From assembly GCA_019931185.1 (NCBI GenBank), contig JAINDK010000042.1, positions 1 to 43,658 on the forward strand: 43,658 bases of DNA, read 5' to 3'. The notes beneath the pieces are model-generated. The model did no database searches. It was not told where the DNA came from and was given only the letters and a program-made list of their open reading frames with translations. The DNA comes from Bryobacter sp. CoA8 C33. GTDB lineage: Bacteria > Acidobacteriota > Terriglobia > Bryobacterales > Bryobacteraceae. The translations under genes and the position numbers were made by a program. This document shows positions 4,901-43,658 of this stretch, in pieces (positions within the stretch are counted from its first letter, which is position 1; each line of letters starts with the position of its first letter).

Positions 4901-5282
4901 CCTCCGTCTCGAGAACTGGCGCCCCACCTGTCACCTCGATGACCTCCGAGACGTTTCCAACCGTAAGCGAGAAGTTTAGGCTGGGCGCTTGGCCAACCTG
5001 CAATTCAACCCCCGTCCGCGACTGCGCCTGAAAACCTTGTTTTTCCACCTTGATCGTGTAGGCCCCCGGATTTAGCGCGGGCGCGGAATAGATGCCACCC
5101 TCATTTGTACGAAGCACACGGGAGAAGCCGGTGGCTGGATTCGAAATGGTCACGGTAGCCGCCGCGACGGCCGCCCCGGTGCTGTCCGTTACCGTGCCGT
5201 TGATTTCGCCTGTGCCGGACTGGGCCATGGCAAAACTGCAGATCAGGTTGCAGAGGAAAACACACTTCGGGATGAGACGCAT
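1989..5282 (-). CDS. TonB-dependent receptor with carboxypeptidase-regulatory-like domain (Oar type)
   Basis: This is a predicted outer-membrane receptor of about 1097 residues. From the ATG at 5282 it has a signal peptide (MRLIPKCVFLCNLICSFAMA, cleavage before QSG). An N-terminal beta-sandwich domain follows (GEINGTVTDSTGAAVAAATV), then a plug with GGAPVLETEATSVG and VELPLNGRNYLQLA, then a long barrel ending in the hydrophobic/aromatic strand QIQVALRYSF. This is the architecture of Oar-like receptors expanded in Acidobacteriota, generally assigned to uptake of glycans or other large substrates. A TTG six codons upstream (5300) would also open the frame, but the ATG gives the cleaner signal peptide. 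It stands alone and is divergent from the GGDEF/EAL gene, so its substrate cannot be deduced from context. Confidence 0.93.
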   Translation of the reverse strand: MRLIPKCVFLCNLICSFAMAQSGTGEINGTVTDSTGAAVAAATVTISNPATGFSRVLRTNEGGIYSAPALNPGAYTIKVEKQGFQAQSRTGVELQVGQAPSLNFSLTVGNVSEVIEVTGGAPVLETEATSVGTVIENKRIVELPLNGRNYLQLASLIPGATTNGPASSQGQQRMGGARNSFALNVAGQRVHFNHYSLDGMENTDPNFNTYLFLPSIDALQEFKVESGLFSAEYGRAIAQVNVSTKSGTNQFHGVAFSYVRNAFLDARNFFAPVNPPFKRNQFGGTFSGPVRIPKLVDGRNKLFFMFNYEGLRERRSLTQTGTLPDARFRSGNLGFLNRPIRDPLNPGQVFPNGLIPESRVSPISRRVLNDFFPLPNQAGGGALGITNNYLNDESRRTDGDQFTLRSDLTAFQNQTFFFRFSQTEEPQYIPFAIKDQGNVVGILGQQGVLGHTLVMGANKVNDFKFGMNYFNSSNIQQRAFKRNVVGQLGLQGISQDPLFWGIPVFQITGFANVGECNDCPFVNWNTTFQFTDNFSWTVGKHTFKFGGEYRRLRYNQIGAVVPRGRFTWNGQYTGEPMADMLLGVMSATEGQVGAPIASFRQNYMGLYLQDVWKLTNKLTVNWGLRWEYESPFMDKNDSIVNVDFAWDNSREPVFVRAGSGNINQGNPQFPSPPGWQLVRDGRFGRGAGVPDRNDFGPRVGLAYQLNSKTVLRVSGGVYFVRDIGNAVFDIVRNIPFTIRQAETADTTRPNLTWNRLFTATGAPSFLLINQYGERTSYVTQWQSSLQRQLTKDMSLEVTYMGSAGIKLRRLTAYNNPEPRPGNPNLNRPFPKFNGSFQNMNAPSHSSYHALQLRLQQRFSNGFTLLGSYAYGKSIDNGSGVRTTDGDPLTPSDNYNLAAERGLSAFDFRQRFTASFLYELPIGRGKKIGLNNAVANTLIGGWQLGGIFTFQDGFPATAFCGPGNIQNGGGYCKPDAISSEKANLPDNQQSISRFFNTNAFVDRLGVAPGVTPTVFRYGTSGRNTIIGPGIIGIDASVNKFFRFLEGKHTFELRGEFFNAPNRANFAQPGTTLRTPTYGVISSTRLDSRQIQVALRYSF

Positions 5283-29929: not shown

Positions 29930-30006
29930 GGGCGCGTAGCTCAGCTGGTTAGAGCGCCTGCTTCACACGCAGGAGGTCCGGGGTTCGAGTCCCTGCGCGC
30001 CCACCA
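29930..30006 (+). tRNA. tRNA-Val (anticodon CAC)
   Basis: This 77-nt cloverleaf includes an encoded CCA. The acceptor stem pairs GGGCGCG (29930-29936) with CGCGCCC (29996-30002), and ACCA ends it. The anticodon stem CCTGC/GCAGG encloses loop TTCACAC with anticodon CAC at 29964-29966. The T loop is TTCGAGT. It is the attachment target of an integrated element: its 3' part is repeated at 34911. Confidence 0.97.
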
Positions 30007-30019
30007 TTAGAATCAATAG
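29961..30019 (+). repeat. attachment-site-like direct repeat, copy 1 (tRNA 3' half)
   Basis: These 59 bp are identical to 34911-34969. They run from the anticodon stem through the CCA and 13 bp beyond. This is the usual crossover site of tyrosine-recombinase islands at tRNA genes. In this copy the repeat is part of the intact tRNA. Confidence 0.93.
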
Positions 30020-30506
30020 CTTGCGGAGCTCGAAAGAAGGTATTTTTAGAGCATCTGCTTTTGCAGCAGGAAATCAATGGTCGTCGACATTGGGCTCGTT
30101 TCGAAAACTCCTGAATCTTCTTGCACTTCGCTAGACTCCATACCTGAAGTTCACAACGGCAATTCTCAGAACGTATCAAAACCGTATCAGCACGAAACTT
30201 TTTAGCTTAGGGTACAGTGCCCTAGGCGAAATCTACACAGTAGAGATCTAAACAGGTCCCTCATCGCCAATTGGGTAATAGCGAGATGCCCCACCCCTGT
30301 TCGAAGTTATGATCGTTGTCGCCCAGAGCTTCTACAGAGTGCATCGTAGTATTTCGAGGGAAGCGCCGAGGCAAAAACATTCATGCTGACAATTGTTGTT
30401 TCTGCCCTCAAGGGTCACTGCCAATCTCGCCAGTCGCGGTCACCAAGATGCGGACAGTCAAAAGGGAACTGACGCCGGAACCGATCAAGGAGTTCCTTCG
30501 GCGTAA
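30020..30506. other. island left end, no supported gene
   Basis: The first 175 bp are a diverged copy of the DNA after repeat copy 2 (34970-35143), including the CGTATCA block at 30156-30193. From 30200 to 30506 I find only short frames; a fragment near 30448-30530 (KRELTPEPIKEFLRRKL) may be coding and joined by a frameshift to the HTH protein that follows. Confidence 0.5.
30156..30193 (+). repeat. CGTATCA block, copy a
   Basis: A 38-bp stretch containing two direct CGTATCA heptamers. It differs from 35106-35143 at only 3 positions. Direct heptamer pairs beside an attachment site could be recombinase or excisionase arm sites. Confidence 0.7.
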
Positions 30507-30653
30507 GCTCCGCGTGACCAGTGGCCCAGGCAAAGAAAGCCACGCTGGGACCGGCAGGAGCGCGATGCGATTGAGCGTGGGCAGAACCCCAACGGGCGTA
30601 GCAGTGCGGCCCTTCGAAAACACAAGCAACGTGTCGAGAAGCGCACTGAAGAA

Positions 30654-30929
30654 TTGGAGGATCAGCCGCTTACCGTGAGCCAAGTGGCGCACTATATCGG
30701 CCGCTCCCGCACGACAGTGCAGCGACTGCTGAAGAGCGGCTACATGCGTCGGTTCAAGGGACGAATCGCCGAGTCCTCGTTTGAGGCCTTTCTACGGGAG
30801 CATCTTGAGCCCGTACCCAATACAAAGTTGTCCCCCGCCCAGAGGGAGAAGGAATGGTTGGTTCTGAATGGGTTCCCAGACCCAGCGGTTTCGTTGAAGG
30901 TGCCCAATCTGCGGGGATTGTTGGAGTGA
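30654..30929 (+). CDS. small helix-turn-helix (excisionase-like) DNA-binding protein
   Basis: The product is about 91 residues from a TTG at 30654; the frame is open back to 30507, and the upstream codons (RKHKQRVEKRTEEL) look coding, so the true N-terminus may be longer. TVSQVAHYIGRSRTTVQRLL is a clear winged-helix/MerR-like helix-turn-helix of the excisionase type, followed by RRFKGRIAESSFEAFLREH. It lies 0.65 kb inside an island flanked by tRNA repeats, which fits a recombination-directionality or regulatory protein. No integrase gene accompanies it. The start is weakly supported and the gene may be partial. Confidence 0.6.
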   Translation: MEDQPLTVSQVAHYIGRSRTTVQRLLKSGYMRRFKGRIAESSFEAFLREHLEPVPNTKLSPAQREKEWLVLNGFPDPAVSLKVPNLRGLLE

Positions 30930-31069
30930 CATTCGAGAATCCGTCATTCGCAAGCCACAGAAACGAATGACACTTCGGCGTCCAGAGTGGAACAATAGAC
31001 TCTACGCTCAGATAAGCCAACATGACGCTGCTCGAACAGCTCTTTGCTGGGATGGCATAAGCAGCCGAC
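30930..31069. other. convergent intergenic region with 8-bp inverted repeat
   Basis: A perfect 8-bp inverted repeat (30943-30950 and 30964-30971, 13-nt loop) lies between the HTH gene and the stop of the GH5 gene. No U tract follows on either strand, so terminator function is doubtful. Confidence 0.35.
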
Positions 31070-32845
31070 TCACTGAATGGCCACTGTTGTTACAGGCGGG
31101 GAGCTAACTCCATTGACTTCGACTACAACCTGGATATTGTTCCCCGTACGGATCTCCATCGGAACGCGGACGTTTAATTGCCCCACGCCGGTAACCAAGC
31201 TAGGGGCGGCACCCGAATACAACACTTCTGAGGCGACGCCGTCTATCCGGACCCGCACGGGAAGCCTGGTGGGTAGAGTGGCAGTTGCGAGCGCACCATC
31301 CGGCAGACTCTCTCGCAGGAGACCACCGCCGGTCATGAATACCGAAACCACCGATCCGCGCGCCGCCGGGCTCGCGGACCCATTGATCGAGCCGTCCTGG
31401 TTCAGTGCCGCCACTTGGCCCTGACCACTTGCATTGGTCGTGAACAAGCCGGGTGAAGCAGCGTCCGTCCTAACGCGAAAAATATCGGAAAACCTCTGCG
31501 CCTGCAGCGTCACATCCACCTCACTCGATCCAGCGATCGACTGAGGGACAACACCCACAATTTGCCCTGGGCCGGCATAAAGCAACGGCGCCGCCACACC
31601 ATTGAACAAAACTGCGACTCCGCCCAGTGAGGCCGAAACCCGTCCCCTGCCATCCAGCCTTGCGCCAAGCGGCTCCGGCACACCATAGCCATCTCCAAAC
31701 AGAGCAAAGATCTGCAAGGGCGATACAACGCCGCCAGCGAAAGATGCACCATTGACGAGGCCGGTGATGCGCGGCGCGGCAAGGCGATTGGCCGCAAAGT
31801 AGGAGCGCAGCAACTCAATGCGCGGCGTGGTCTCAAATCGAGTCTCATCCTGTTGGTCTGTGTTGCTCTTCTCCGCATCCCACACCGATGCAATGCGGAA
31901 GGAATGATACGTCCAACTCCACCCATAGCGTTCGGCAATGTCGGCAATATCACGCATCCAGCGGTTTCCATCCTCACCGGCCCAGCGTGCTGCAGCAAAC
32001 TCACCCAAATAGATCGGTACGTTGTATCGATGCTGGAACTCAGCCACGGGCTCCAGTAGCCGCCGGTGCAGCTCCGCGTTCCAGGTCGTATTGCGATAAA
32101 AACCCGGGTAGCGCAAATTCACCGGCCTCCCGTCAACGCCCTGATGGGTGAACTCGCCAGGCCCATACCAGTGCACGCTGTAAACGGTATTGGCATCGTC
32201 AATCGGCTTGAGATAACCCACCATTTCTGCCACCGGAGGCAATCCGCCTGGCGCATTGGCAAAGATCGGAAACTCTACAACCAGCGTGTGCTTGGTATCA
32301 ATAGCGCGAATCGCGGCTGCCAGCTTGCGTACAAGCAGGTTCCAGTTCGCTGGTGTACCTTCGGCGGCTGCTCCCCGCGGCGGAGAAGGTTCGTTCAGCA
32401 AATCATAGCCGGCGATCACCGGACCACGGTCCCTGTAGCGTTCGGCGAGAAATTTCCACAGCCGGATCAGATGGTCGTGAAATGCGAAATCGTGCCAGAT
32501 CGGATCGGTCGGGACAGTTGAAGTCGACGACTGCGTGCCGGGTGTTGTGTGCGGATCGAGAATCGCCTTCAGTCCATTCTGCTCGCACACATCCAGGATG
32601 CGATCCAGTGCCTCGACAGCATTCATCTGGATCTCAAATGGCGCCTGCTTCTGCATCAGATTCAACTGGTGAAAATTGATGCGCACCACGTTCGCCCCCC
32701 AGCCGGCAAGGACTTTGGCATCGGCATCGGTGAACTGATGATTGATGTTCGCACCCCGGTAGCGGCCCCAGTCGAGAAGGTTCGCCTGCGGCAATTGCGC
32801 GCTCAAAATTGCCGCACAGGCCATTAGCTTCAAACAGAACTTCAT
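31070..32845 (-). CDS. GH5-family glycoside hydrolase (cellulase-like) with TIGR03437-type C-terminal domain
   Basis: This 591-residue exported enzyme begins with a signal peptide (MKFCLKLMACAAILSA). The GH5 barrel spans about 20-350; the acid/base Glu152 is in AGYDLLNEPSP and the nucleophile Glu282 in VPIYLGEFAAA, with VHWYGPGEF between. It should cut beta-1,4-glucan, mannan or similar chains. From about 358 the protein carries a second beta-rich region (PRITGLVNGASFAGGVVSP, APGLFTTNASGQGQVAALNQ-like segments, ending VNGVSSPPVTTVAIQ). This matches the C-terminal extension TIGR03437 found mostly in Solibacter-type acidobacteria, perhaps for cell-surface display. The ATG overlaps the stop of the upstream esterase gene. 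Confidence 0.93.
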   Translation of the reverse strand: MKFCLKLMACAAILSAQLPQANLLDWGRYRGANINHQFTDADAKVLAGWGANVVRINFHQLNLMQKQAPFEIQMNAVEALDRILDVCEQNGLKAILDPHTTPGTQSSTSTVPTDPIWHDFAFHDHLIRLWKFLAERYRDRGPVIAGYDLLNEPSPPRGAAAEGTPANWNLLVRKLAAAIRAIDTKHTLVVEFPIFANAPGGLPPVAEMVGYLKPIDDANTVYSVHWYGPGEFTHQGVDGRPVNLRYPGFYRNTTWNAELHRRLLEPVAEFQHRYNVPIYLGEFAAARWAGEDGNRWMRDIADIAERYGWSWTYHSFRIASVWDAEKSNTDQQDETRFETTPRIELLRSYFAANRLAAPRITGLVNGASFAGGVVSPLQIFALFGDGYGVPEPLGARLDGRGRVSASLGGVAVLFNGVAAPLLYAGPGQIVGVVPQSIAGSSEVDVTLQAQRFSDIFRVRTDAASPGLFTTNASGQGQVAALNQDGSINGSASPAARGSVVSVFMTGGGLLRESLPDGALATATLPTRLPVRVRIDGVASEVLYSGAAPSLVTGVGQLNVRVPMEIRTGNNIQVVVEVNGVSSPPVTTVAIQ

Positions 32846-33894
32846 TGCGAAATACTCCGTGCCGAAACCGGCAATGCCTTACCCAAGAACGCGGTTACAT
32901 CCTGCAGCACCTTCACCACAGTCTCAACCGGAGTGGCGCTGCCGAAATAGAATCCATGCCCCTCGCCCTTGTACCATCGCCACTCCACCTTCACTCCCGC
33001 CTCGATCGCGGCCGGTAGCAGGATCTCGTGATTCATCACCTTCAACGGGTGAATGTCTCCTGACAACAGCAACAGCGGACACTGTATCCTCCTCAATTTC
33101 GATTCCATGATTTGCCGCTGCTCTTCTTTGTAGTAAGCCTCGGGATCACCCATCATGCGCAAACGAGGCTCGTAATCGCCAGTCTTCAACATGCCCGCGA
33201 ACAGGATCGTAGCCGGTTCTCCGGCAATCACGGCCGCCGGCCTGTGCCGCGATGCGATCTCCAGCGCAAGACTGCCGCCCCCGCTTCCCCCGAATAACAC
33301 CACACTGCCCGGATCCACTCCTGGCAACGACTTCAACTTCATATAGAGCGCCTCCACGTCCAGGTCAGGCCCCGGCGCCAAAAGATTCTGCCGGTCATAA
33401 GATCGAAACGTTGCCTGCGCCACAATAAAACCCGCCGCCAGCAACCGCGTATGCACCGGGCACTCCGTGAGGAACCACGACTGCTTCTCGGGCCGTTGCG
33501 GGTCCAGTCCGCCATGAATCATCAGTACCGCCGGGAAAGGCCCCTTGCCGGGAGGCCTGCGGTAAGACCCTTGAATCACTCTGCCATCGGTGGCCGTTGC
33601 CGCGAGAATCTCAACCGGCGCGCGATCCAGCCCAATCCGCACTGGCTGCGCCTGAAATACCTCGCCAGTACCATCGCCCGTCAACCCGGCCAGCGCCAGT
33701 CGTGTAGCCATCGGCGAGTTCTGTCGCGAGTCGAGGGAGGCAAGTGCCTTGGCCAGATACTCCTGATCCTGGGTAGAAAGCACGGTGCCACGTACTTGCT
33801 TCTCGCGCAAATCCACCACGCGCTTCCAGTCGATTCCCTGCTGCGCGGCGGTAACCTGCACAGCGAGACAAACCAGTATGAAATATCGTTTCAT
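32842..33894 (-). CDS. exported alpha/beta hydrolase (esterase/peptidase S9-like)
   Basis: This 350-residue protein has a signal peptide (MKRYFILVCLAVQVTAAQ). The nucleophile is probably Ser204 in LFGGSGGGSLALE, the oxyanion region is VLMIHGGLDPQRP, the acid Asp lies near 286 (LLLSGDIHPLK) and the His near 323 (GEGHGFYFG). It probably removes acyl groups or cuts esters from polysaccharides before or with the GH5 enzyme. It is coupled on both sides by ATGA overlaps (MarR stop at 33891-33894, GH5 start at 32842-32845), so the three form one operon. Confidence 0.88.
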   Translation of the reverse strand: MKRYFILVCLAVQVTAAQQGIDWKRVVDLREKQVRGTVLSTQDQEYLAKALASLDSRQNSPMATRLALAGLTGDGTGEVFQAQPVRIGLDRAPVEILAATATDGRVIQGSYRRPPGKGPFPAVLMIHGGLDPQRPEKQSWFLTECPVHTRLLAAGFIVAQATFRSYDRQNLLAPGPDLDVEALYMKLKSLPGVDPGSVVLFGGSGGGSLALEIASRHRPAAVIAGEPATILFAGMLKTGDYEPRLRMMGDPEAYYKEEQRQIMESKLRRIQCPLLLLSGDIHPLKVMNHEILLPAAIEAGVKVEWRWYKGEGHGFYFGSATPVETVVKVLQDVTAFLGKALPVSARSISQ

Positions 33895-34376
33895 ACGGCC
33901 TCCTTCTCCCTTGACTTCATGGCCCGCAACCGCGTCTGGATGTTGCCTGAAACCTGTGTCATCAAACGGCGCAGCAACTGCTGCTGGCCCGCGGGAATTC
34001 CCGCGTTCAACTCCGCCTCCAGCGCTTTACTAACCGCATAACACCGCGTACGCAAGTCCTCAGCCCGCCGCGTCAGACGCAAGCGAAAACTTCGTCGGTC
34101 CTCCTCGTCGGCTTCCCGCTCCAGCAGGCCAGCCTGCTCCATCCGCCGAACCATCCCCGTCAGGGTGGAGGCCGCAATCCCGGCCCGGCGAGTCACCTCC
34201 TTGAAGCTCAAATTGTCTTCCTCAAACAGCACAAACAACACTCCGCCCATCCCGGGAATCAGATGCTCGTCCAATCCCGTTTCTCTCAGATGCTGGGTGA
34301 GCAGCGCGACGTAGTTGTAATAAACTCGCCCCACGAGAAAGCTTAGGGGCTGAAGGATCGGCTTCGCGCACTTCAT
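33891..34376 (-). CDS. MarR family transcriptional regulator
   Basis: The product is 161 residues from the ATG at 34376; a further ATG at 34403 would add nine residues. The MarR winged helix is clear: LSFKEVTRRAGIAASTLTGM for the helix-turn-helix, then RRMEQAGLLEREADEEDRRS for the wing, which has the D-x-R pattern. It is the first gene of the esterase-GH5 operon and probably controls it and itself; a perfect palindrome abuts its start. Confidence 0.92.
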   Translation of the reverse strand: MKCAKPILQPLSFLVGRVYYNYVALLTQHLRETGLDEHLIPGMGGVLFVLFEEDNLSFKEVTRRAGIAASTLTGMVRRMEQAGLLEREADEEDRRSFRLRLTRRAEDLRTRCYAVSKALEAELNAGIPAGQQQLLRRLMTQVSGNIQTRLRAMKSREKEAV

Positions 34377-34387
34377 TCGGTACCGAA
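34376..34387. promoter_or_regulatory. 12-bp palindrome, candidate MarR operator
   Basis: TTCGGTACCGAA is a perfect palindrome directly upstream of and touching the ATG at 34376. MarR proteins bind palindromes near their own start sites, so autoregulation is plausible. No second copy was noticed in the window. Confidence 0.35.
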
Positions 34388-34403
34388 CAAAATAATGACT
34401 CAT

Positions 34404-34910
34404 CCAATGGTGGCTGTCAAGTACCTAAGGAATACTGCCACTGTGGGCATACGAGTAATGAGTTGCTTGGATCCGGAATCGACCGGAGTCATCATTGCTG
34501 TCTGCGCAATAATGGCCCCCTTCCTATGGCCCTATGGAACAAGCCAATCGGTCCCTCCTGCCAAGGGGATCCGCCAATACTGAACCTGTTGCGAAAGGCC
34601 GTTGCAGCGGTCCCCCGTCCGTTCCGAAGGTCGAAAGCGAAGACAGCGGCGACATCCAACTGATTGCTGTCAAGCGGTGTCGTGCCAATTAAGCAGCCGA
34701 CAATTCAAATTATGCTGACCTAACCTTGAAAGGTCCGACTATCCGGGCAAGAAGTCGAAGGGAAGCGAATGAACCGTATCAAAACCGTATCAAAACTCCA
34801 TCTGAAGCAAACAAAAGGCTTAGGGACTCGGCTCGAAGCATGTGGCCTAACTTGTTGAAAAGCAAGAAAAACGTATGGAGCCAATAGAACAAATGGAACG
34901 AGTTCTCCTT
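34404..34910. other. island right end, no supported gene
   Basis: Upstream of the MarR gene. One forward frame (about 34400-34672) has Cys/His pairs (YCHCGHTSNELLG, RSHHCC) and a NLLRKAVAAVPR tail that faintly recall a transposase zinc ribbon, but not enough to call. The last part, 34771-34890, is a copy of the CGTATCA block. Confidence 0.4.
34771..34890 (+). repeat. CGTATCA block, copy b
   Basis: About 115 bp similar to 35121-35240: paired CGTATCA heptamers, then matching stretches around AGGCTT, GGACTCGGCT, GTGGCCTAA and GCAAGAAAAAC. This copy lies immediately before attachment repeat copy 2. Confidence 0.75.
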
Positions 34911-34969
34911 CTTCACACGCAGGAGGTCCGGGGTTCGAGTCCCTGCGCGCCCACCATTAGAATCAATAG
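34911..34969 (+). repeat. attachment-site-like direct repeat, copy 2 (orphan tRNA-Val 3' half)
   Basis: Identical to 29961-30019. It starts in the anticodon stem and lacks the 5' half of the tRNA, so it does not encode a functional tRNA. It marks the distal end of the inserted segment (4950 bp from repeat to repeat). Confidence 0.93.
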
Positions 34970-34976
34970 TTTACGA

Positions 34977-35013
34977 TGCTCCACAAAGGCGATTTGTGGA
35001 GCATCTGCTTTTG
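34977..35013 (+). terminator. rho-independent terminator after the orphan tRNA half
   Basis: A perfect 11-bp stem (34977-34987 with 34993-35003, 5-nt loop) is followed by TCTGCTTTTG. It looks like the original terminator of the tRNA-Val gene. The corresponding place after the intact tRNA (about 30025-30062) has a broken stem. Confidence 0.7.
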
Positions 35014-35105
35014 TAGCAGCTGTTCCAGTTGCGGAAAGAACCGAGTCGCCTCTCAATTACTTAATTTTTCAATAACTTCGGATGAATCCTGATTCGAGGT
35101 TCCAG

Positions 35106-35250
35106 ACGGCAATTCTCAAAACGTATCAGAACCGTATCAACACTTCATCGGAAGCAAATGATAGGCTTCAGGACTCGGCTGGAAGCAGTGGCCTAAGTCG
35201 TTATAGCGCAAGAAAAACCGATAGACCACTTGGAAGAATTTGACCCTTGC
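35106..35250 (+). repeat. CGTATCA block, copy c
   Basis: The first 38 bp match copy a with 3 differences, and the remainder matches copy b. It thus links the two other copies into one repeat family tied to the attachment sites. Confidence 0.75.
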
Positions 35251-35417
35251 CTGGAAAGATGGCCAACGTGGATACAACAGAATCGTCGCTGTTATCCTCC
35301 CAATTCCTTTATCTTCGAACTCTTTAGGATCGGTGTTCTCAGGTAGCGAAGCCTCAGCGGCTTGTGCGCCCGCAACGCATGAATCGAGCCCATCGGCTGA
35401 CCTAGCAGTCGCTCCCG
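35251..35417. other. intergenic, nothing recognised
   Basis: This lies between the repeat block and the stop of the SMP-30 gene. I find no gene, and no terminator for the sugar operon could be identified here. Confidence 0.5.
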
Positions 35418-36263
35418 TCAGACCGCCGGGATGGCCAGCCCCCCCTCAATAAAGGAACGGCTGACGACGTAAATGCTAGTTCGCGCCGTGACCCACAAAG
35501 AGCCATCCGGATCGAGCGCCAAGTTGGCTGGAATTTCTGGAATGGGGATTCGACCAGCGAGTTCCCCTTGTGCGCTGAGCAAAAGGATTCCGCCAGGCCC
35601 TGTCGCCACCATGCTCCCATCTGGCCGAACCTTCAGCCCGTCGGGAACCCCAGCATCTCCACTCGGCAAGCTCAGCAGCCGAATCGGCGCTCCGATGCTG
35701 CCGTCAGCGTATAGGGGAAAACGATTCCAATACATATCCGCGGGATCGGAGTTTGCTACATAGAGAAACTGCTCATCCGGCGACAAGGCCAATCCGTTCG
35801 GTTTTGCCATCGCCTCACACAGCAAGCTAAGGCTCCCCTCCTGCCAACGGAAGAGGCCATTGAACGGAAGTTCCTTTTGCGCATCACCATCCCGATCGGC
35901 CAAACCGTAGGGCGGGTCCGTAAAGTAAATAGCTCCCTGGGAATCAACGATGACGTCGTTGGGACTGTTCAGGCGTCGGCCCTCGAAATCCCTGCTCAGA
36001 ACCTCAATCGTGCCATCACGACATTGCCGGCTGAGGCATCTGCGACCGTGCTCGCAAATGATGAGGTCCCCAGAAAGATCGAGCGCAAGGCCATTCGGAT
36101 GCATTCCCGGGCGATCGAGGTAGACATAGACCTCCCCGCGGGAAAAACGATAAATCCTGCTGCCGTGAATATCGCTGAACAGAAGGTCCCCGTCAGGCAG
36201 GAGTACGGGGCCTTCCGTAAACTGAAAGCCAGTCGCCACCCGCCGAACATCCGGGCGGCTCAT
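35418..36263 (-). CDS. SMP-30/gluconolactonase/LRE family protein
   Basis: This 281-residue beta-propeller lactonase should open a sugar lactone. Metal-ligand positions of the family are visible: Glu17 in GFQFTEGPVLLPDG, the Asn in RRLNSPNDVIVDSQG, and the Asp in GVPDGLKVRPDGSM. No signal peptide, so cytoplasmic. The ATG overlaps the stop of the SDR gene (36260-36263). As last gene of the operon it would hydrolyse the lactone made by the dehydrogenase upstream. Confidence 0.92.
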   Translation of the reverse strand: MSRPDVRRVATGFQFTEGPVLLPDGDLLFSDIHGSRIYRFSRGEVYVYLDRPGMHPNGLALDLSGDLIICEHGRRCLSRQCRDGTIEVLSRDFEGRRLNSPNDVIVDSQGAIYFTDPPYGLADRDGDAQKELPFNGLFRWQEGSLSLLCEAMAKPNGLALSPDEQFLYVANSDPADMYWNRFPLYADGSIGAPIRLLSLPSGDAGVPDGLKVRPDGSMVATGPGGILLLSAQGELAGRIPIPEIPANLALDPDGSLWVTARTSIYVVSRSFIEGGLAIPAV

Positions 36264-37018
36264 CGGAAGTAGAATCCCCCGTTGACGTCCAGAGTGGCGC
36301 CTGTAATGTGCTTTGCTTCGTCGCTGGCGAGGAAGACCACGGACGTTGCGACATCCTGAGCCGATCCTAAGCCCAGTGGAATATCCTGTGCGACTGCGCG
36401 AATTCCCTCTTCGCCATGCGCGGTGCGCAGCATCTCGGTTTCAATCACACCAGGCGCCACCGCGTTCACGGTGATGTGGAACGGGGCCGCTGTTCGGGCC
36501 AGCGTGTGCACCAAGCCAAGTTGTCCGGCTTTGGCGGCAGTGTAGTGGACGAAACCGCGAATCGCGCCCCGGAAGGCCGTCACGGAACTATTTACGATGA
36601 TGCGGCCGGAGCGCTGCTCCCGCATTCGGAACATCGCGGCCCGGGCGCAGAGAAAGAAGCCCGTTAGATGAGTGTCCAAGACCTCGTGCCATCCTTCCAG
36701 CGTTGTTTCAAAGATATCCTCGCGACGCGTCACCCCAGCGTTGCTAACCAGAATATCGATGCGCCCAAAGTGAAGAACTGCGGCCTCGAACATAGCATCG
36801 ACTTCACGTTCCACCCGCACATCGGCGGGATAGAATAGCGCCCGAGCGCCAGCAGCTTCAATGGCGGCACAAGTTTCGCGCGATTCCGCGGTTTCTCGCA
36901 GATCATTTACCACCACCGCCGCGGCTCCCGCATGGGCCAGCGCAATTGCGATACTCGCGCCTAATCCACGGGCTGCACCGGTGACCAGGGCAACCTTAGC
37001 GTCCAGTTGGAACATCAC
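36260..37018 (-). CDS. SDR family NAD(P)-dependent oxidoreductase
   Basis: This 252-residue short-chain dehydrogenase has the cofactor motif VTGAARGLGASIA (Gly 14-20), NAG in LVSNAGVTRRED, the catalytic Ser145 in IIVNSSVTAF, and Tyr159-x3-Lys163 in HYTAAKAGQ. The C-terminus (ITGATLDVNGGFYFR) is complete. The operon suggests oxidation of an aldose to its lactone. It overlaps the dehydratase gene by 23 bp and the lactonase by 4. Confidence 0.93.
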   Translation of the reverse strand: MMFQLDAKVALVTGAARGLGASIAIALAHAGAAAVVVNDLRETAESRETCAAIEAAGARALFYPADVRVEREVDAMFEAAVLHFGRIDILVSNAGVTRREDIFETTLEGWHEVLDTHLTGFFLCARAAMFRMREQRSGRIIVNSSVTAFRGAIRGFVHYTAAKAGQLGLVHTLARTAAPFHITVNAVAPGVIETEMLRTAHGEEGIRAVAQDIPLGLGSAQDVATSVVFLASDEAKHITGATLDVNGGFYFR

Positions 37019-38204
37019 TCTTCCTCACTGAATAGTAGGGTCGCGCGTCCGGCGGACGAATCCCGGTGAGCGCTCCACTCTTGTAATGCCGCAAATCGTG
37101 CGGCTCATATGGGAACTGCTTGGCGCAGTCCTCGTCCAGATCAATTCCCAGTCCAGGATGCTTAGGTACCAGCATGCATCCGTCTTCCAGAACCAGTGAC
37201 TCCGGCGCCACCTCGGCCCGCCAAGCCACGTCGCTCATCATGGTTTCCAGCATCAGGAAGTTCGGAGTGGAGGCCGCTACCTGGAGCGTCATCGCATTGC
37301 AGATCGGACCATTCGGATTGTGCGGGGAAATCCCCTTCTCATGCAGCAAAGCCAAGCTGGCCACCCGCTTGCATTCGAGCATACCTCCGACGTGGCAGAC
37401 ATCCGGCTGCGCGATATCAAGGGCCTTGCGATCAAAGGCGTCCGCAAAACGGCCCACCTCAAAGAAGCGCTCACCCGCGGCCACGGGGATGCGAATACGA
37501 TCCCGGACTTCGGCCAGCGCGGAGAGGCTCTCCGGAGACACCGGCTCCTCGTACCAGTAAGGATTCAGTCTTTCGAGTTCTCTGGCCATCGAAACCGCGC
37601 TAGGCACGTCGAGACGTCCATGCACTTCGATCAGCAGGTCGACGGCAGGCCCAACGGCGTCGCGCACCGCTTCCACGATCTCCACCGCCATGCTCCGCTC
37701 TTCCGGCTCCAAAGTGCGATAGGCGGAACCGAAAGGGTCGAACTTCAGGGCGCGAAAGCCAAGTGCTGCCGCGGCCCGAGCCTTTTCAGCGAATTGCAGG
37801 GGTGTGCGGGCGCCGGCGAACCAGCCATTGGCGTAGCACTTCACGCGATCGCGACTGCGCCCGCCGAGCAGTTCGTAAACGGGAACGCCGAGTGCCTTTC
37901 CCTTGATGTCGAGCATGGCCGCTTCTACAGCGCTCAGAGCCGTACGCAGAATAACGCCGCTTCTCCAGTAGGAGTCACGGTTCATGATGTGGATGTGGTG
38001 TTCGACCGCAAAAGGGTCCTTGCCTAAGAGGTAGCGGCCGAGTTCTTCGACGCCTTCGGCAATCGTACGTTCGCGCATTTCGACGGTCGCTTCGCCGACG
38101 CCGGTGATGCCCTCATGAGTGTACAGTTTGACGAATACCCAGTTGCACCGATAGGCGTTCACGACGAAGGTCTTCAGGGCGGTAATGGTGAGTTGTTGAC
38201 GCAT
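36996..38204 (-). CDS. mandelate racemase/enolase superfamily sugar-acid dehydratase (galactonate dehydratase-like)
   Basis: The product is 402 residues. The capping domain is followed by a barrel with HGR in LLIEVHGRLDVP (Glu193, His195), the second ligand in YWYEEPVSPES (Glu219/220), the third in VAAGERFFEV (Glu245) and the catalytic His295 in ISPHNPNGPI. These are the marks of the D-galactonate dehydratase-like group, which makes 2-keto-3-deoxy sugar acids. The first metal ligand is normally Asp; here the aligned residue appears to be Glu193, which may be a subgroup feature. Exact substrate cannot be told. It is 3 bp downstream of the GH42-like gene. Confidence 0.9.
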   Translation of the reverse strand: MRQQLTITALKTFVVNAYRCNWVFVKLYTHEGITGVGEATVEMRERTIAEGVEELGRYLLGKDPFAVEHHIHIMNRDSYWRSGVILRTALSAVEAAMLDIKGKALGVPVYELLGGRSRDRVKCYANGWFAGARTPLQFAEKARAAAALGFRALKFDPFGSAYRTLEPEERSMAVEIVEAVRDAVGPAVDLLIEVHGRLDVPSAVSMARELERLNPYWYEEPVSPESLSALAEVRDRIRIPVAAGERFFEVGRFADAFDRKALDIAQPDVCHVGGMLECKRVASLALLHEKGISPHNPNGPICNAMTLQVAASTPNFLMLETMMSDVAWRAEVAPESLVLEDGCMLVPKHPGLGIDLDEDCAKQFPYEPHDLRHYKSGALTGIRPPDARPYYSVRKSDVPTGR

Positions 38205-38207
38205 TTT

Positions 38208-40352
38208 CTATCCGTTGAGTTCTCCCCCAGTCAGCAGATACAGTTTGACTGCGCCAGGCTGGTGAGGGATTCTGAGACGGCCGTCCCTTACTTCGAGCAA
38301 TCCCCCGTCGAAGAGTTCTTCGGCCTGCAATTTCCTTCCGCTCGCCAAGTGAAGATCCGGAGCCTGTGGCGACTGCATGTGGACCCCGATTAGCCGGCTG
38401 TTTACATACACAGGATCGGTACCGGAGCTATAAATGTGTACGCCCGCTTGGCGCGCCAGTTCCCGATACAAGTCCGCTGGCAGATTCGGCACCGCGCTAT
38501 ACACCGAAGTGTGTTCGGCCAATCGTTTGTATCCCAATGCGGGAATACCACTGCCGGCGTATCTGCCGAGAACAGTAACGCTTTCGTCCGCGATGCGGAA
38601 CAAAGGGAACAGGCGCTCGGAAAAACCGAAGCGCGCGCCGCTCGCATCCAACTTCACACTGCCATCCACGGAATCGTGCCTGGCAATTCGCATCCCGGTC
38701 ACGGCTGAGATGCCATCCGAGGATACTTGATCCGCTTGAATAAAGTTGGGCGCCCAGATCCAGACGAGCGTGCGACCGTTCTTTGCTACCCGTTTTTCGA
38801 TGAACTCGCGTTGTTGATTGCCGATGCGCAGACAGTTCAGAAACACAACCATGCGGTACTGCTGCCAAGGTATGTTCTCGTTGGCAATATCGGAAAAGGT
38901 GTAGATATCCCAAGGGGCTCCCACCCGCGCCAGCACATCCGGGGGATTCACCAACAAGTCGTCACTCAGGCGGGAGAGCGAGGATGTGTAGTACATCGAC
39001 TGCGTGTCTCCAAACACGGCGATCTGAGCGACCGAGCGCATATCGATGTCCTCAAGCCGGCGGCTTACCTTTACCAGATTTGCTATTTCCTTGCGCAGCG
39101 GATCGGAGTCGTAGTAGCCGCCGAAAAAATCGAACCACCACAAACCCGTTCGCTTCACGCGCGTCAAGAGAAATTCCCTTCGCAGTACCATCCTGGTCTC
39201 GAATTCGTCCTTTAGCTTCGAGTCCGAACCCGGTATGCGACGCCCGTTTTCCACCGTCGTGGGAGCGACATAGGTCGTGTGGTCGATCTCCTGAAAGCTC
39301 AGCTTCCCATGCAAGGCCAACGAATCGACGGTAGCGAGATAGCCGCTTGCGCCCCCAAAACTGCGAGGTTCCCCGTAACGCGCCGGGCTGAAGATCATAT
39401 CGAGGTTTGGGGATTTCCAGACTGCTTCGTAGCCGAGGTGGCCCTCTTCGAGCAACCGCTTGCCACGAAGAGTGTTCAGATATCCGTAGAAGACTCCCAG
39501 CAGCTTACGATGTTCGATCACTTCCTGAGCACGGGCAGCGAAATACAGAATGGCATCCGCGATGATTTCGTTGTGAAATCGCCAGTAGCGCAAGGCGGCG
39601 GCGTCCCGCTCCGGGTGCCGCAGCACGCCCTCGGCGCTTTGGTAAAGTTCGTGCAAAGGAGGAAGCGTTGCCTCAGGACTGCCAAGGACCTTCCGGTATG
39701 CCGCCTCCTTGATGGGGTGGGCGCGAACTGCGGCATCCGTGCGGCGCGACTGGGAATTCGTATACCACTCTGTGGAAGAACCACAGAACAGGCTATAGGC
39801 GAATACATGGTCTCCATACTTTCGTTCGACATAGCGCATGATGTCCTGCAAAGCTTGGGCGGCATCCTTCCTCCATGGCTCGTGGCCGGCCATCTCCACC
39901 AGGTTGCGAAAGGTGTTGGAGTATTCCGGATGAGCCTTCAGGTACCAGTCACGCGTGTCCAGTTGCAGCATGATGTTGAAGTGGGCCTCCGGCGCACACT
40001 TTATGAAGAGGTCCATCTGCCGGTCGAAGTTTTCGAAGTTGTATTGTCCGGGCCCGGTCCAGATCTCGCCAAACTGAGAGTACGGCACATCGAGAGTGCA
40101 ATCCATGCCGGTGTGCAGCACGCTCATCAGCCGGACGCCGGCGTCATAAAACTGCCGGATGTTCTTTTCCGATGCACGGAAAGACCGAAAGGCAAGCGGC
40201 TCATAGACACGACCGCCCACTTCGATCTTGAATTCGCCGCTTCGGCGTACCAAACGAGCTAGTGCGGGACCGCCCATGCCGGCGCCCCGTTGGGCAGCTG
40301 CGAGGGGGAGACCGCCAGAAAGGGCGAGGAAGGTCCGCCGCGTCTTGCTCAT
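38208..40352 (-). CDS. Tat-exported GH42-like (beta-galactosidase fold) hypothetical protein
   Basis: The ATG at 40352 overlaps the GntR stop (ATGA), giving 714 residues; the frame is open 27 codons further but those lie in gntR. The signal is twin-arginine (KTRRTFLALSGGLPLAAAQ). The body suggests a TIM-barrel glycosidase (IWTGPGQYNFENFDRQMDLF, FNIMLQLDTRDWYLKAHPEY, AYSLFCGSSTEWYT). A flavodoxin-like domain follows, resembling the beta-galactosidase trimerisation domain (MVVFLNCLRIGNQQREFIEK, KNGRTLVWIWAPNFI). I could not identify the catalytic glutamates with confidence, and family assignment is by fold pattern only. In the operon it would release the sugar used by the enzymes encoded downstream. 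Confidence 0.7.
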   Translation of the reverse strand: MSKTRRTFLALSGGLPLAAAQRGAGMGGPALARLVRRSGEFKIEVGGRVYEPLAFRSFRASEKNIRQFYDAGVRLMSVLHTGMDCTLDVPYSQFGEIWTGPGQYNFENFDRQMDLFIKCAPEAHFNIMLQLDTRDWYLKAHPEYSNTFRNLVEMAGHEPWRKDAAQALQDIMRYVERKYGDHVFAYSLFCGSSTEWYTNSQSRRTDAAVRAHPIKEAAYRKVLGSPEATLPPLHELYQSAEGVLRHPERDAAALRYWRFHNEIIADAILYFAARAQEVIEHRKLLGVFYGYLNTLRGKRLLEEGHLGYEAVWKSPNLDMIFSPARYGEPRSFGGASGYLATVDSLALHGKLSFQEIDHTTYVAPTTVENGRRIPGSDSKLKDEFETRMVLRREFLLTRVKRTGLWWFDFFGGYYDSDPLRKEIANLVKVSRRLEDIDMRSVAQIAVFGDTQSMYYTSSLSRLSDDLLVNPPDVLARVGAPWDIYTFSDIANENIPWQQYRMVVFLNCLRIGNQQREFIEKRVAKNGRTLVWIWAPNFIQADQVSSDGISAVTGMRIARHDSVDGSVKLDASGARFGFSERLFPLFRIADESVTVLGRYAGSGIPALGYKRLAEHTSVYSAVPNLPADLYRELARQAGVHIYSSGTDPVYVNSRLIGVHMQSPQAPDLHLASGRKLQAEELFDGGLLEVRDGRLRIPHQPGAVKLYLLTGGELNG

Positions 40353-41059
40353 CGAATTCTTCTCGCTTTCTTGGATTGCGCGATGCCCGACGCCTCGCGT
40401 TGGGCCAAAAGATCTTGACGGGCATTTTCGCAATGCAGGAGTGTCACCCGCTCGGCTTCAGCGGCATCGCGCCGGTCGAGCGCGCGAATGAGCGCACGAT
40501 GTTCAGCCACGAGTTGATCCAACCGTTCAGCCCCGAATCCGAAAGTCCGTCGCATGGTAATGACGAGTTCCCAGTTGCGCTCCAAGAGTCGAAGGGCATC
40601 CACATTGTCGGCAATCTGGTAAATCACATGGTGGAAAGCTTTGTTCTCCCGGAGGACCCCGTCGAGATCTCTCTGCCGGGCGCATTCTTCGTAACGCGCT
40701 TCGATAGCGTGAAGACGGAAGATATCGGAGTCCTGAATCCGGCTAATCGCGCGGCGCATGAGGAGGGCCTCCAGCGCCCCCCGAATCTCATACATGTTTT
40801 CAATGAAGTGTTCATCGACGTTGCGAATGCTGGCACCGCGATTCGGGGCAAAAGTGATGAGACCTTCACCTTGTAGCATTTGGAGCGCTTCGCGCACTGG
40901 CATCTGACTGACCCCATAGCGTCGAGCGATATCAGCGATTTTGATCCGGTCCCCCGGACTGAAGACGCCCTTGAGGATGTCCGTCCGGATCTGCTCTCGC
41001 ACCCGCACATAAATCGGATCCGCGATACCAGGTACTACGGGTTGCACTTCGTCAGTCAT
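40349..41059 (-). CDS. GntR family transcriptional regulator (FCD domain)
   Basis: This 236-residue regulator has an N-terminal winged helix (PIYVRVREQIRTDILKGVFS, IADIARRYGVSQMPVREALQ, GLITFAPNRGASI) and a C-terminal FCD effector domain. Ligand-type residues are in the YEIRGALEALLMRRAI, NKAFHHVIYQIADN and LVAEHRALIRALDRRDA segments. FCD-type members sense sugar acids or related carboxylates. It lies inside the operon it presumably controls, overlapping the MFS and GH42-like genes by ATGA on each side. Confidence 0.94.
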   Translation of the reverse strand: MTDEVQPVVPGIADPIYVRVREQIRTDILKGVFSPGDRIKIADIARRYGVSQMPVREALQMLQGEGLITFAPNRGASIRNVDEHFIENMYEIRGALEALLMRRAISRIQDSDIFRLHAIEARYEECARQRDLDGVLRENKAFHHVIYQIADNVDALRLLERNWELVITMRRTFGFGAERLDQLVAEHRALIRALDRRDAAEAERVTLLHCENARQDLLAQREASGIAQSKKARRIR

Positions 41060-42276
41060 GGGCTTACCTTCTTATGATCCTTCTCGAACGAAAACAGTGC
41101 CGCACCAAGGACGGCGACACCTCCTATGATGTACACGGCGGAGAGAGAGCGGATGCCGAGAGACAATCCAGCGGCCTGCTTCAGTGCGCCGAGGATGATG
41201 GGAGCGGCCGCAGCCGTCAGAAAAGCAAAGCAAATCATCAGGCCCGAAATCGATGCATGGTACCGCGCCTCCACTACTTCAAAGACGGTCGTGTAGGTAT
41301 TGGCTTCATAGAGACCGCGGCAGAATCCAAACAGCGCCAGCGAAACATAGAGGGTACCAAGGCCTCCCGCCGCGCCCATGCCGTAGATAAAGGGAGCGCC
41401 TGCTATAAGAGCTACCGACTGCTGCAAAAGCCGCCGACGGGGGGCGGCCACGGCCATGGCATCCGAAATTCGACCGCCTAGCATGACTCCGGCGAATGCG
41501 GCCGCGTGGTGATAAAACATGCTGGAGAATCCGGATTGCGAGAGGCTCTGACCAAATTGCTCGTGCAGGTAGGTCGGCATCCACGTCAGATATCCCACAT
41601 TCACAAAGACCAGGGACGAAAAGCCAAGGGTCAGAAGCGCCAAGGTGGGACGACTGACCACAATGCGAAAGATTTCCCTCAGTTCAGGTCGGCCCGCGGG
41701 ATGCACGGCGCGGCTATCCCGCAAGCGCAGCGCAAGCACGAGCGAAAGCAGAATCCCTACAGCTCCAAAGACCACGAATGCCGATCGCCACCCGAAGCGG
41801 TCAGCCAGCCAGCCCGCCAGTAGTCCGCTCGCCACGACTCCGCAGTAGAGTGAAGTCTGGTGGATGGCCATGGCCTGCGCCCGCGTTTCTCTATGGTGTT
41901 CTCCAATCAGGGCGTTCGCCGCGGGAGCGTAAACGGCCTCCCCCGCCCCGGTGGCGATGCTGCGGATTCCGATGAGTTGTCCAAGGCTTGCCGCGAAAGC
42001 CGTCAGCAGTGTTGATGCACTCCAACTGAAGAGGCTGCCCGACACCAGCCAACGACGGTTCCACAGGTCGCCGAGATATCCCGCCACCGGGACCGTGACG
42101 GCCAAGGAAGCCGTGAAGAGTCCCGCAATCCAGCCAGCCTGGATATCGGTCAGGCCCAGGTCTACCTTCAGTTGCGGCAGCACGATGGCAAAGACCTGTC
42201 GATCCGCCTGATTGAAGAAGAAGGCCAGCCAGAGCCAACCAACGAGTTCCCACCGGTACGGAATCCCTTTCGGCAT
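41056..42276 (-). CDS. MFS transporter (hexuronate/sugar-acid type)
   Basis: This 406-residue inner-membrane protein has about 12 hydrophobic segments. The start (WLWLAFFFNQADRQVFAIVL, LGLTDIQAGWIAGLF) and the loop GYLGDLWNRRW are typical of the anion:cation symporter group that takes up hexuronates and related acids. The ATG overlaps the receptor stop as TAATG (42274-42278) and the stop overlaps gntR, so outer- and inner-membrane transport are encoded in sequence. Confidence 0.92.
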   Translation of the reverse strand: MPKGIPYRWELVGWLWLAFFFNQADRQVFAIVLPQLKVDLGLTDIQAGWIAGLFTASLAVTVPVAGYLGDLWNRRWLVSGSLFSWSASTLLTAFAASLGQLIGIRSIATGAGEAVYAPAANALIGEHHRETRAQAMAIHQTSLYCGVVASGLLAGWLADRFGWRSAFVVFGAVGILLSLVLALRLRDSRAVHPAGRPELREIFRIVVSRPTLALLTLGFSSLVFVNVGYLTWMPTYLHEQFGQSLSQSGFSSMFYHHAAAFAGVMLGGRISDAMAVAAPRRRLLQQSVALIAGAPFIYGMGAAGGLGTLYVSLALFGFCRGLYEANTYTTVFEVVEARYHASISGLMICFAFLTAAAAPIILGALKQAAGLSLGIRSLSAVYIIGGVAVLGAALFSFEKDHKKVSP

Positions 42277-43658
42277 TAAAAGTTGTACTTCAGGCCAAAT
42301 TGAATGATGCGTGCGGGCGCGGCGCTGGAAATCACTCCGAAGTTGACGTTCCCGACGGAATTGCCGGGCTGCCCGAAGTTGGTGTGGTTGGGCACATTGA
42401 AGAACTCCGCCCGGAACTGTAAGGACTGGCCTTCAAAAGTCGGAAAATCCTTCAGAATCGACACATCCAGATTGACCCTACCGGGCCCTTTGAGGATGTT
42501 CCGCCCGGCATTGCCGAAAGAGAACGGGTCCGGGCGGCGGAAGGCGGCGGTATTGAACCAGCGGCTGAGTGACCGCTCATCAGAGGGAAGGTTCACCTCT
42601 CCACTGACGTACTGCGCGCGCAATCCACCGACACCTGTATTGGCGTCGCCAATGGATCGGGGAGAAAACGGGATTGCGTTGAGCCAGCTAAAGAAACCAC
42701 CAATCTGCCAATTCTTGAGTGCAGAGTTTGCCAAGCGGTTCATTGACGGGGTTGGGATGGTCGCCGTCCAGCCCAGTCGAAAGCTGTGGGCAATGTGGTA
42801 ATCCGACAACCCGCGCTCCAGGTCCCGGCGCCGTTCGTCTTGCGCAAAGTCGCCGGAGCCGGGGTTTGCGCGGGACGTGCCGTCGTCGATTGCCTTGCTC
42901 CACGTGTACGCGGCGATTAGGCTATAGCCGCGAGAGAATCGCTTCTCCGCCCTTGCCTGCAGTCCGTGATAGTTAGAATTCACCAGGGGGGCCATCGGAG
43001 TCACGGTGCCCACCAGCGGGGAAGGCAGGCGGCGCGGTTGCGCGGGTCCAGGTCCCGGAGGAGCGATGTTGAGCACTTGAAATGCGGAAATCTTGTGCCC
43101 TTGATTGCCGCTGTAACCGATTTCCACGACTGTATCATTGCCCACTTGGCGCTGTAGCGTGGCGCTGTATTGAAAGACGTAAGGCATCACCAGGTCGCGT
43201 GCCAGCGAGAAAATGCGCGGTTGGGTCACAAGGGTGATTCTCGAGCTGCCCTCTCCAAAGGGATCTGTGATCGGCAGGTCGGGACGCAAAGGATCCGCCA
43301 CCGGCGCCTGCCTCACCCCTTGCGGTGGGTTGCTGGTCATGTCATTCAACGGGTTTGCGAAATCTTCGCTAAAGAATGCCCCGAAGCCCACCCGCAGGCT
43401 CGTCCGTCCCCGGCCATCCGCGTTCCAGGCCAGTCCCAACCGGGGAGCCCAGTTGTTCCTGTCCCACTTCGTGGGGTAGCGGCCAAACCTTCCGTCGCGA
43501 ACGTAGGGAATCCCGGGATCCAGGCGAATGTTTGCGAATCCGGCATAGGGGTCGCCCGTCCCCATGCGTACCAACGTGACGTCATTGCCTACAATCGCCG
43601 AGATCAGGTTATCGTTCTTCTCCAGAAAAGGACTGGCCAGTTCGTAGCGCACACCCAG
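42276..43658 (-). CDS. TonB-dependent receptor, C-terminal part (cut by window end)
   Basis: The frame runs off the right edge (the last bases read LGVRYELASPFLEKNDNL), so at least 460 residues of barrel are seen and the signal peptide, plug and any regulatory-like domain lie outside. Features are Oar-like: RNNWAPRLGLAWNADG, YEKRFSRGYSLIAAYTWSKA-like strands, FRAEFFNVPNHTNFGQPG and a terminal IIQFGLKYNF. An upstream ATG inside the barrel at 43652 is not the real start. As first known gene of the sugar operon it presumably imports the glycoside. Confidence 0.93.
   Translation of the reverse strand: MGVRYELASPFLEKNDNLISAIVGNDVTLVRMGTGDPYAGFANIRLDPGIPYVRDGRFGRYPTKWDRNNWAPRLGLAWNADGRGRTSLRVGFGAFFSEDFANPLNDMTSNPPQGVRQAPVADPLRPDLPITDPFGEGSSRITLVTQPRIFSLARDLVMPYVFQYSATLQRQVGNDTVVEIGYSGNQGHKISAFQVLNIAPPGPGPAQPRRLPSPLVGTVTPMAPLVNSNYHGLQARAEKRFSRGYSLIAAYTWSKAIDDGTSRANPGSGDFAQDERRRDLERGLSDYHIAHSFRLGWTATIPTPSMNRLANSALKNWQIGGFFSWLNAIPFSPRSIGDANTGVGGLRAQYVSGEVNLPSDERSLSRWFNTAAFRRPDPFSFGNAGRNILKGPGRVNLDVSILKDFPTFEGQSLQFRAEFFNVPNHTNFGQPGNSVGNVNFGVISSAAPARIIQFGLKYNF

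Follow-up and report, generated by a model that had tools for sequence, protein, structure and literature searches.

Introduction

Genomic islands without a recombinase of their own are common, and it is usually hard to tell whether they are dead or move with outside help. As outlined in PMC5704250, cis-mobilizable elements (CIMEs) are decay products that are mobilised jointly with an incoming integrase-bearing element. In the Dehalococcoides ssrA islands described in PMC3146451, 15 lack an integration module and are read as possible cis-mobilizable elements. Here we analyse a stretch of 43,658 nt from Bryobacter sp. CoA8 C33 (contig JAINDK010000042.1; the window), in which a tRNA-Val(CAC) gene is followed by an island of about 5 kb, our element E1. 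Our comparisons make it likely that E1 and its neighbours E2 and E3 are cargo islands with GH5/esterase and sugar-acid catabolic genes, probably three in tandem at tRNA-Val, that were inserted in trans by tyrosine integrases of the type that we call IntVal and are now stranded. The labels E1–E3, P (left-hand end), P' (right-hand end) and IntVal were coined in this analysis.

With CIMEs and accretion, as PMC5704250 portrays them, the locus shares att-bounded elements in which no integration genes were found, and a tandem order with att-like junctions. It differs from that portrayal in being a row of integrase-less elements with no integrase-bearing neighbour found in the genome, and in having element ends that form a conserved lineage common to several genera. 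Such integrase-less ends, conserved across genera, would be more than a decay product of the CIME type, and the array is to be placed, as far as its sequence tells, as a CIME-like, non-autonomous variant of known tRNA-targeted islands.

To the extent that PMC3146451 sets out the Dehalococcoides ssrA islands, these likewise stand in tandem at one RNA gene, bear catabolic cargo and in some cases have no integration module. They rely on serine recombinases and a tmRNA target, whereas the present locus involves a tyrosine integrase family and tRNA-Val, and here arm-type repeat pairs link the integrase-less elements to a candidate helper. Tycheposons, in the descriptions of PMC10872708 and PMC11389934, carry cargo between tRNA borders and have a tyrosine recombinase as well as nutrient genes, and by this description the IntVal elements of relatives look alike. 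A tyrosine recombinase near the tRNA, by which tycheposons are recognised, is present in those IntVal elements, in contrast to E1–E3, in which no recombinase was found. Dependence on an enzyme made elsewhere is also a trait of miniature inverted-repeat transposable elements (MITEs) and of clusters of attC sites lacking integrases (CALINs) as introduced in PMC11389934, from which the members measured here differ by their size of about 1.6 to over 20 kb, their tRNA target and their cargo.

Results

A tRNA-derived core repeat and arm-type sites

The core, which is the 3' half of tRNA-Val plus 13 bp, occurs at 29961–30019 and again at 34911–34969 with 59 of 59 bp identical. No other exact direct 59-bp repeat exists in the window, and the chance expectation for one is about 3e-27 pairs. 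As is typical of tRNA-targeted elements, the insertion lies at the 3' half of the tRNA and the direct repeat restores the gene. G+C content is uninformative (56.8% in the E1 segment, 57.3% in the left flank). A first-pass annotation of this DNA had already reported a perfect 59-bp tRNA-derived repeat, which the exact identity and the ARAGORN call bear out, and had correctly stated that the second copy has no tRNA 5' half: its match, 34907–34956, begins at tRNA position 28 and runs to position 77. A conserved left arm takes the place of that half, contrary to what a tandem tRNA duplication would leave. Together with the core repeat and the arrangement in congener G003 described below, this arm supports the site-specific integration at a tRNA that the annotation had proposed.

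The similarity of both boundaries extends in register beyond the 59 bp, to 30193 and 35143, respectively, and to the left of 34911 there is conserved sequence of its own. Cores are flanked by paired 10-bp repeats of the form AACCGTATCA-N-AACCGTATCA or slight variants of it, resembling the arm sites of tyrosine integrases. From the paired repeats around the cores and the extended similarity it follows that the boundary at 34911, beyond being an end, is the junction of two elements.

The window's genome (G000) is a draft of 5.05 Mb and 138 contigs. The array extends over C11, which is the window contig, and two more, C91 and C58. Three more tRNA-less cores are present, one on C91 and two on C58; an additional relic on C58 comprises a core and 85 bp of a right-hand end. 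For exactly 141 bp, the 3' end of C11 and the beginning of C91 in reversed orientation are the same, an overlap of the kind left by a k-mer assembler, and the element that starts at 34911 therefore ends at the C91 core. Both E1 (29961–34910, 4,950 bp) and this second element, E2, have kept cores and arm pairs at both ends, as attL and attR sites would have it. E3, with its right end probably on C58, would measure at least 22 kb as one element across an assembly gap. At up to 3 mismatches the arm-pair pattern is found at 6 places in the genome, all core-adjacent (reversed control, 2). Three of these are P' and three P, as expected for three elements, and all lie on C11, C91 and C58. Where the first-pass annotation had pictured one island, the array thus probably holds three tandem elements, E1, E2 and E3.

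Neither the E1 segment nor the rest of the window contig yielded a tyrosine recombinase in searches with PF00589 and an integrase hidden Markov model (HMM), as the annotation had claimed for the island, and the same searches found none in E2, the sequenced parts of E3 or their contigs. A weak phmmer match (4.8e-4) at window 4837–5028, probably from a wrong query frame (L023), had the support of neither. The genome-wide search for a recombinase that the annotation had suggested gave 15 PF00589 matches, with none on the three array contigs, and no IntVal gene at E ≤ 1e-40. No tandem neighbour with an integrase was hence found in the sequenced array parts, and no IntVal gene in the assembled genome. 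Among the Pfam matches of the ten E1 and E2 proteins scanned, there were no phage genes and no transfer genes, although no dedicated relaxase search was made. Another contig of this genome, C56, has an integrase gene at its end (L082:1-1401); the attachment site of this integrase was not found.

An integrase family that is likely cognate to the arm pairs

The arm pair (≤1 mismatch) is present in 33 of 237 family genomes, with 2 matches for the reversed control. Out of 61 arm places examined, 48 have a correctly oriented tRNA 3' match within 420 bp; the 13 without one, among them a place in G200, were excluded from the geometry classes. P-side pairs (n = 24) stand 108–123 bp from the core match. 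P'-side pairs (n = 24) stand at 44–45 bp (3), 68–81 bp (10), 140 bp (1) or 161–171 bp (10). On the opposite side, too, a short tRNA-like match was present at two of these P' places (that of G208 and one of G207); the 140-bp case (G212, one mismatch) was excluded from alignment statistics. The window elements conform to this geometry of IntVal-type arm pairs: the left pair lies about 108–123 bp from the core and the right pair at one of a few spacings.

At five P' sites, all of the 68–81 class, a tyrosine integrase gene (PF00589) lies directly behind the arm pair and faces the tRNA. A sixth integrase-adjacent pair, in G200, is found at a tRNA-Pro in opposite orientation. IntVal is likely the integrase family cognate to the arm pairs. 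In G224 and G008 a helix-turn-helix (HTH) gene adjoins the integrase; that of G224 is an excisionase-like HTH_17 gene by Pfam, and that of G008 is similar by eye. The G224 element (L137:1250 to L138:17662, G224:C287) measures 36.2 kb and runs from the tRNA over arm pair, integrase, excisionase-like gene, cargo and left arm pair to the core, with a cargo that includes type VI secretion genes (VipB, IcmF-related and ClpV-like proteins by Pfam). Behind its second core lies another integrase, in two pieces.

The pair (≤1–2 mismatches) also stands beside tRNA-Val, -Arg, -Asp and -Lys where the integrase is at least 74% identical; IntVal relatives at tRNA-Pro, -Ala and -Thr (standard orientation) have no arm pair within 700 bp. 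Since the pair tracks close IntVal relatives across different tRNAs, the repeats seem to belong to the integrase rather than to the tRNA, as arm-type sites do, and arm sequences seem to change with integrase identity. IntVal relatives (L145–L174, L209–L286) adjoin tRNA genes for Val, Pro, Ala, Thr, Arg, Asp and Lys, and some face the tRNA 5' end.

At E ≤ 1e-40, IntVal occurs in 30 of the 237 family genomes, with none in the 8 of the window's genus, and in a further 78 loci of named genomes, every title of which names an Acidobacteriota taxon. All matches among 50,697 phage records fell below 60% identity (26–28% in the listed rows). We rejected a prophage or virus as the helper: an IntVal relative was not confirmed in IMG/VR, and phage and plasmid integrases are no more than distant relatives of IntVal. 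The arm pattern in three viral contigs was taken as unrelated, with no integrase in the parts examined of the three. The viral contigs L192 and L193 each match the pattern twice on opposite strands; in L192 the matches fall among many clustered short ACCGTATCA-like repeats that may be replication iterons.

A lineage of conserved ends

P' ends with 164–171 bp to the arm pair can be aligned across G000, G001, G138, G139, G140 and G186. A search with the G140 right-hand end found 6 of 237 family genomes in three genera, with arm-only matches in G085, G029 and G224; as it scored at most 3 first-look candidates per genome and missed the copy behind the window's tRNA, which is the most diverged, this number undercounts diverged ends. 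The left ends of G000, G001, G186 and G144 are 73–91% identical among themselves and 49–62% identical to the other lineage compared, and the split of the two lineages is supported at 100. We excluded G075:C38 from the lineage counts, since it falls in the other lineage by its left end, despite a similar right spacing of 161 bp.

An IntVal gene follows none of nine lineage right-hand ends, compared with 5 of 13 right-hand ends outside the lineage for which sufficient sequence was available; the 13 exclude P' sites at contig ends in G070 and G085. The tyrosine recombinase HMM found nothing in 14 stretches (12 from lineage contigs and 2 from G075:C38), and PF00589 had no match on G001:C41, G186:C11, G140:C13, G138:C77 and G139:C200. 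A parent element with the same ends was not found in the family genomes searched, and our literature search found no paper on this lineage. The IntVal locus of G138, at a distance of 248 bp, was rejected as an integrase-bearing lineage member, since its half-sites, at 69 and 99 bp from the tRNA, are placed differently from those of the lineage.

Right behind the tRNA 3' copy the lineage has conserved a strong hairpin that is followed by TGCTTTTG, with one paired change and z values of −4.4 to −5.5 in the three copies folded. Behind the real tRNA, at copy 1, the hairpin has decayed (z −0.6). The element-supplied hairpin is possibly a tRNA terminator or a protein-binding site. Also behind the right-hand end, an AbiEi-like antitoxin gene is a 198-aa open frame in G140 (L139:10930-11523), shortened in G001 (L064:10504-12118) and, in G186 (L125), interrupted by some 12.7 kb of cargo.

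Congeners and another genus

Congener G001 has the same kind of array, of 8 kb plus 1.6 kb, with three cores and four arm pairs. Its right-hand ends group with G186, which belongs to another genus, at an ultrafast bootstrap of 97 and to the exclusion of all copies of its congener G000. In rpoB, by contrast, G000 and G001 group together, with 95% amino acid identity against 83% between G001 and G186. Both ends of a 14-kb element in G186 are matched by the 1.6-kb G001 element, with 79% identity along 471 bp and 81.5% along 1,099 bp; the matched sequence includes a PIN-domain gene (PADLOC PDC-S70) with 83% amino acid identity. At the left end of the G186 element the core is lost. The tree of the ends and the likeness of the G001 and G186 elements fit a transfer between genera without an integrase on board.

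For the comparison with relatives that the first-pass annotation had called for, congener G003 is informative. It has the same upstream gene and tRNA as the window, without an arm pair of this kind, and hence displays the tRNA without the array. Comparison with G001, G002, G004 and G006 did not yield the true chromosomal flank on the right, as these have nothing but the tRNA or core in common with the stretch after the last core on C58. The sequence right after the G003 tRNA is 92% identical over 330 bp to that after the last core (core 4) on C58. This common stretch resembles the end of a second element type with ACAGCCCACCC repeats, which in G011 has its integrase directly behind tRNA-Val, and therefore the array appears to have gone in between the tRNA and an island that was already there. 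The element type with arm-like ACAGCCCACCC repeats uses the same tRNA-Val core and bounds stretches of 4.2 kb on C58 and 22 kb in G003.

Discussion

From these comparisons, E1 would have arisen when recombination of the tyrosine integrase type inserted a 4.95-kb element at the 3' half of tRNA-Val(CAC). Each element of the array has the order core, right arm pair, cargo, left arm pair and core. The core restores the tRNA, and strand exchange was probably in or close to the anticodon loop, the point from which the copies agree. We assume that a co-resident helper provided an IntVal integrase in trans, which integrated the islands and moved them between cells, and that stacking came about by insertion into existing core sites. 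With no IntVal gene detected in the assembly, the elements now look stranded. The first-pass suggestion of a decayed or trans-mobilised element is supported; the arm pairs match those at the IntVal genes of relatives, and E1 is partly decayed.

We may further speculate, as a tentative proposal somewhat short of an even chance, that the window's elements belong to a dedicated non-autonomous lineage that has retained nothing of an integrase family but its recombination ends and is always without the integrase gene itself, while it exchanges its cargo and spreads between genera with the aid of helper integrases. If true, tRNA-specific tyrosine integrases would have their own counterpart of MITEs, one that bears cargo. 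Under the same proposal, and held just as tentatively, the lineage would carry two types of cargo, catabolic and toxin/defence.

Another history would have E1–E3 as plain deletion remnants, that is, CIMEs that lost their own integrase after insertion, are now fixed and never moved in trans. This we consider unlikely. It agrees with the truncated and frame-changed HTH gene and the decayed hairpin of E1, with the relic on C58, with the lost left-end core in G186 and with the failure of the search to turn up an IntVal gene in the window's genome. However, all nine lineage right-hand ends have one spacing (164–171 bp) and noncoding sequence that can be aligned across genera, and this one shared spacing speaks against deletion remnants because independent deletions should leave differing break points. 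The left ends likewise form one lineage in the fully supported split, and the conflict of the right-end tree with rpoB suggests movement after integrase loss.

Movement of the lineage by another host recombinase is highly improbable. One candidate, the C56 integrase, matches at 4e-98 an integrase of G031 whose gene ends 26 bp from tRNA-Val(CAC). We rejected it as the cognate enzyme, as no arm pair (≤4 mismatches) is present in the first 20 kb of C56 or in the G031 stretches read; moreover, C11, C91 and C58 hold all six arm pairs of the genome, and the pair does occur beside IntVal genes. Least credible of all, and close to negligible in our estimate, is a repeat that goes back to an ancient tRNA duplication or to an assembly artefact. 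Although the array does extend over three of the many contigs of a draft genome, E1 and both its cores lie within one contig, the same architecture with two elements is found in congener G001, the arm geometry recurs in many genomes, and G003 displays the array-free arrangement.

Insertion in trans by IntVal-type integrases is hence the reading that we prefer, and a number of observations weigh against it or against the proposed lineage. Of the 7 genomes with lineage ends, only G138 also holds an IntVal gene, and the IntVal relatives of G138, L251 and L261 (72–77%) stand at tRNA-Val without a full pair, so that arms and integrase are tied together imperfectly. The contrast of 0 of 9 with 5 of 13 gives a Fisher p of 0.054, for groups set by hand after viewing the table and sites that are non-independent. 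The recombinase HMM hits 5 of 5 controls, four of which are also in its training set. Trees of the P' ends were built from some 180 bp, and that of the P side does not resolve the branching inside the lineage. At third positions the identity of the PIN gene (101 of 157) barely exceeds that of rpoB (659 of 1089), and the transfer between genera may therefore be old rather than recent. E1 itself is partly decayed, with its hairpin lost behind the real tRNA and its HTH gene broken, and the path from C91 to C58 runs into repeats, both contig ends recurring in the genome, so that the gap was left unclosed.

With the substrate (cores and arm pairs) and the likely enzyme (IntVal, with an excisionase-like partner in relatives) both named, movement in trans becomes directly testable. 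The locus also illustrates how a single tRNA gene can come to hold a stack of sugar-catabolism and toxin/defence genes in soil Acidobacteriota.

Features and cargo of the elements

Coordinates of the features are collected in Table 1. For E1, Pfam agrees with the HTH gene and the MarR, esterase and GH5 genes named by the first-pass annotation, with the difference that the HTH gene turns out to be a broken relic. It is 81% identical over 139 amino acids to a 205-aa protein of G011, the gene of which sits about 9 kb from a tRNA-Val with an integrase. An excisionase role for the E1 HTH gene is unsupported, the gene being broken. A relative with the same content but no second repeat, which the annotation had named as a finding that would refute its proposal, did not turn up: at E ≤ 1e-60 the alpha/beta hydrolase is present in 1 of 237 family genomes, namely the window's own.

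Table 1. Features of the tRNA-Val locus in the window (positions of the forward strand)
Feature	Position	Strand	Remarks
tRNA-Val(CAC), target gene	29930–30006	+	ARAGORN; Rfam RF00005, 71.4 bits
Core copy 1, attL-like (left, tRNA 5' half; right, right arm of element)	29961–30019	+	59-bp exact repeat
Right-hand end (P') of E1, class with about 165 bp from tRNA end to arm pair	30020–30210	+	aligned with C91, G001, G138, G139, G140, G186
Arm-type repeat pair, GAACGTATCA-A-AACCGTATCA	30169–30189	+	
HTH_17 gene relic, 5'-truncated, frame change	30507–30929	+	
Cargo: GH5 (Cellulase) protein	31070–32845	−	PF00150, 8.7e-31
Cargo: alpha/beta hydrolase (esterase/peptidase S9-like)	32842–33894	−	PF00326
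Cargo: MarR regulator	33891–34403	−	PF01047
Left-hand end (P) of E1	34741–34910	+	85–91% identical to left ends of C91, C58, first G001, G186
Arm-type repeat pair of E1 P end	34772–34792	+	
Core copy 2, E1/E2 junction, attP-like (P arm left, P' arm right)	34911–34969	+	
Window part of E2	34911–43658	.	E2, 11,305 bp core to core via the 141-bp C91 overlap
Strong hairpin, then TGCTTTTG, right behind tRNA 3' copy	34975–35005	+	conserved in lineage, decayed in copy 1
Arm-type repeat pair of E2 P' end	35119–35139	+	
E2 cargo in window, seven genes including barrel fragment	35418–43658	−	Pfam on the first six proteins listed in the text

In E2, the cargo comprises an SGL/gluconolactonase-like protein, an SDR protein, a mandelate-racemase family protein, a 741-aa protein without a Pfam match, a GntR-FCD regulator and an MFS protein, followed by a TonB-receptor-like barrel, whose C-terminal part lies in the window and whose N-terminal part lies on C91 (Pfam on the C91 part). 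The content of E3 includes an FAD oxidoreductase, a ROK protein and another TonB-receptor-like barrel. On G075:C38 (L127), a 4.5-kb element between two tRNA-less cores carries AbiEi, AbiEii and an AEP-TOTE primase/helicase protein, which by their predicted families make it a compact defence-like cargo.

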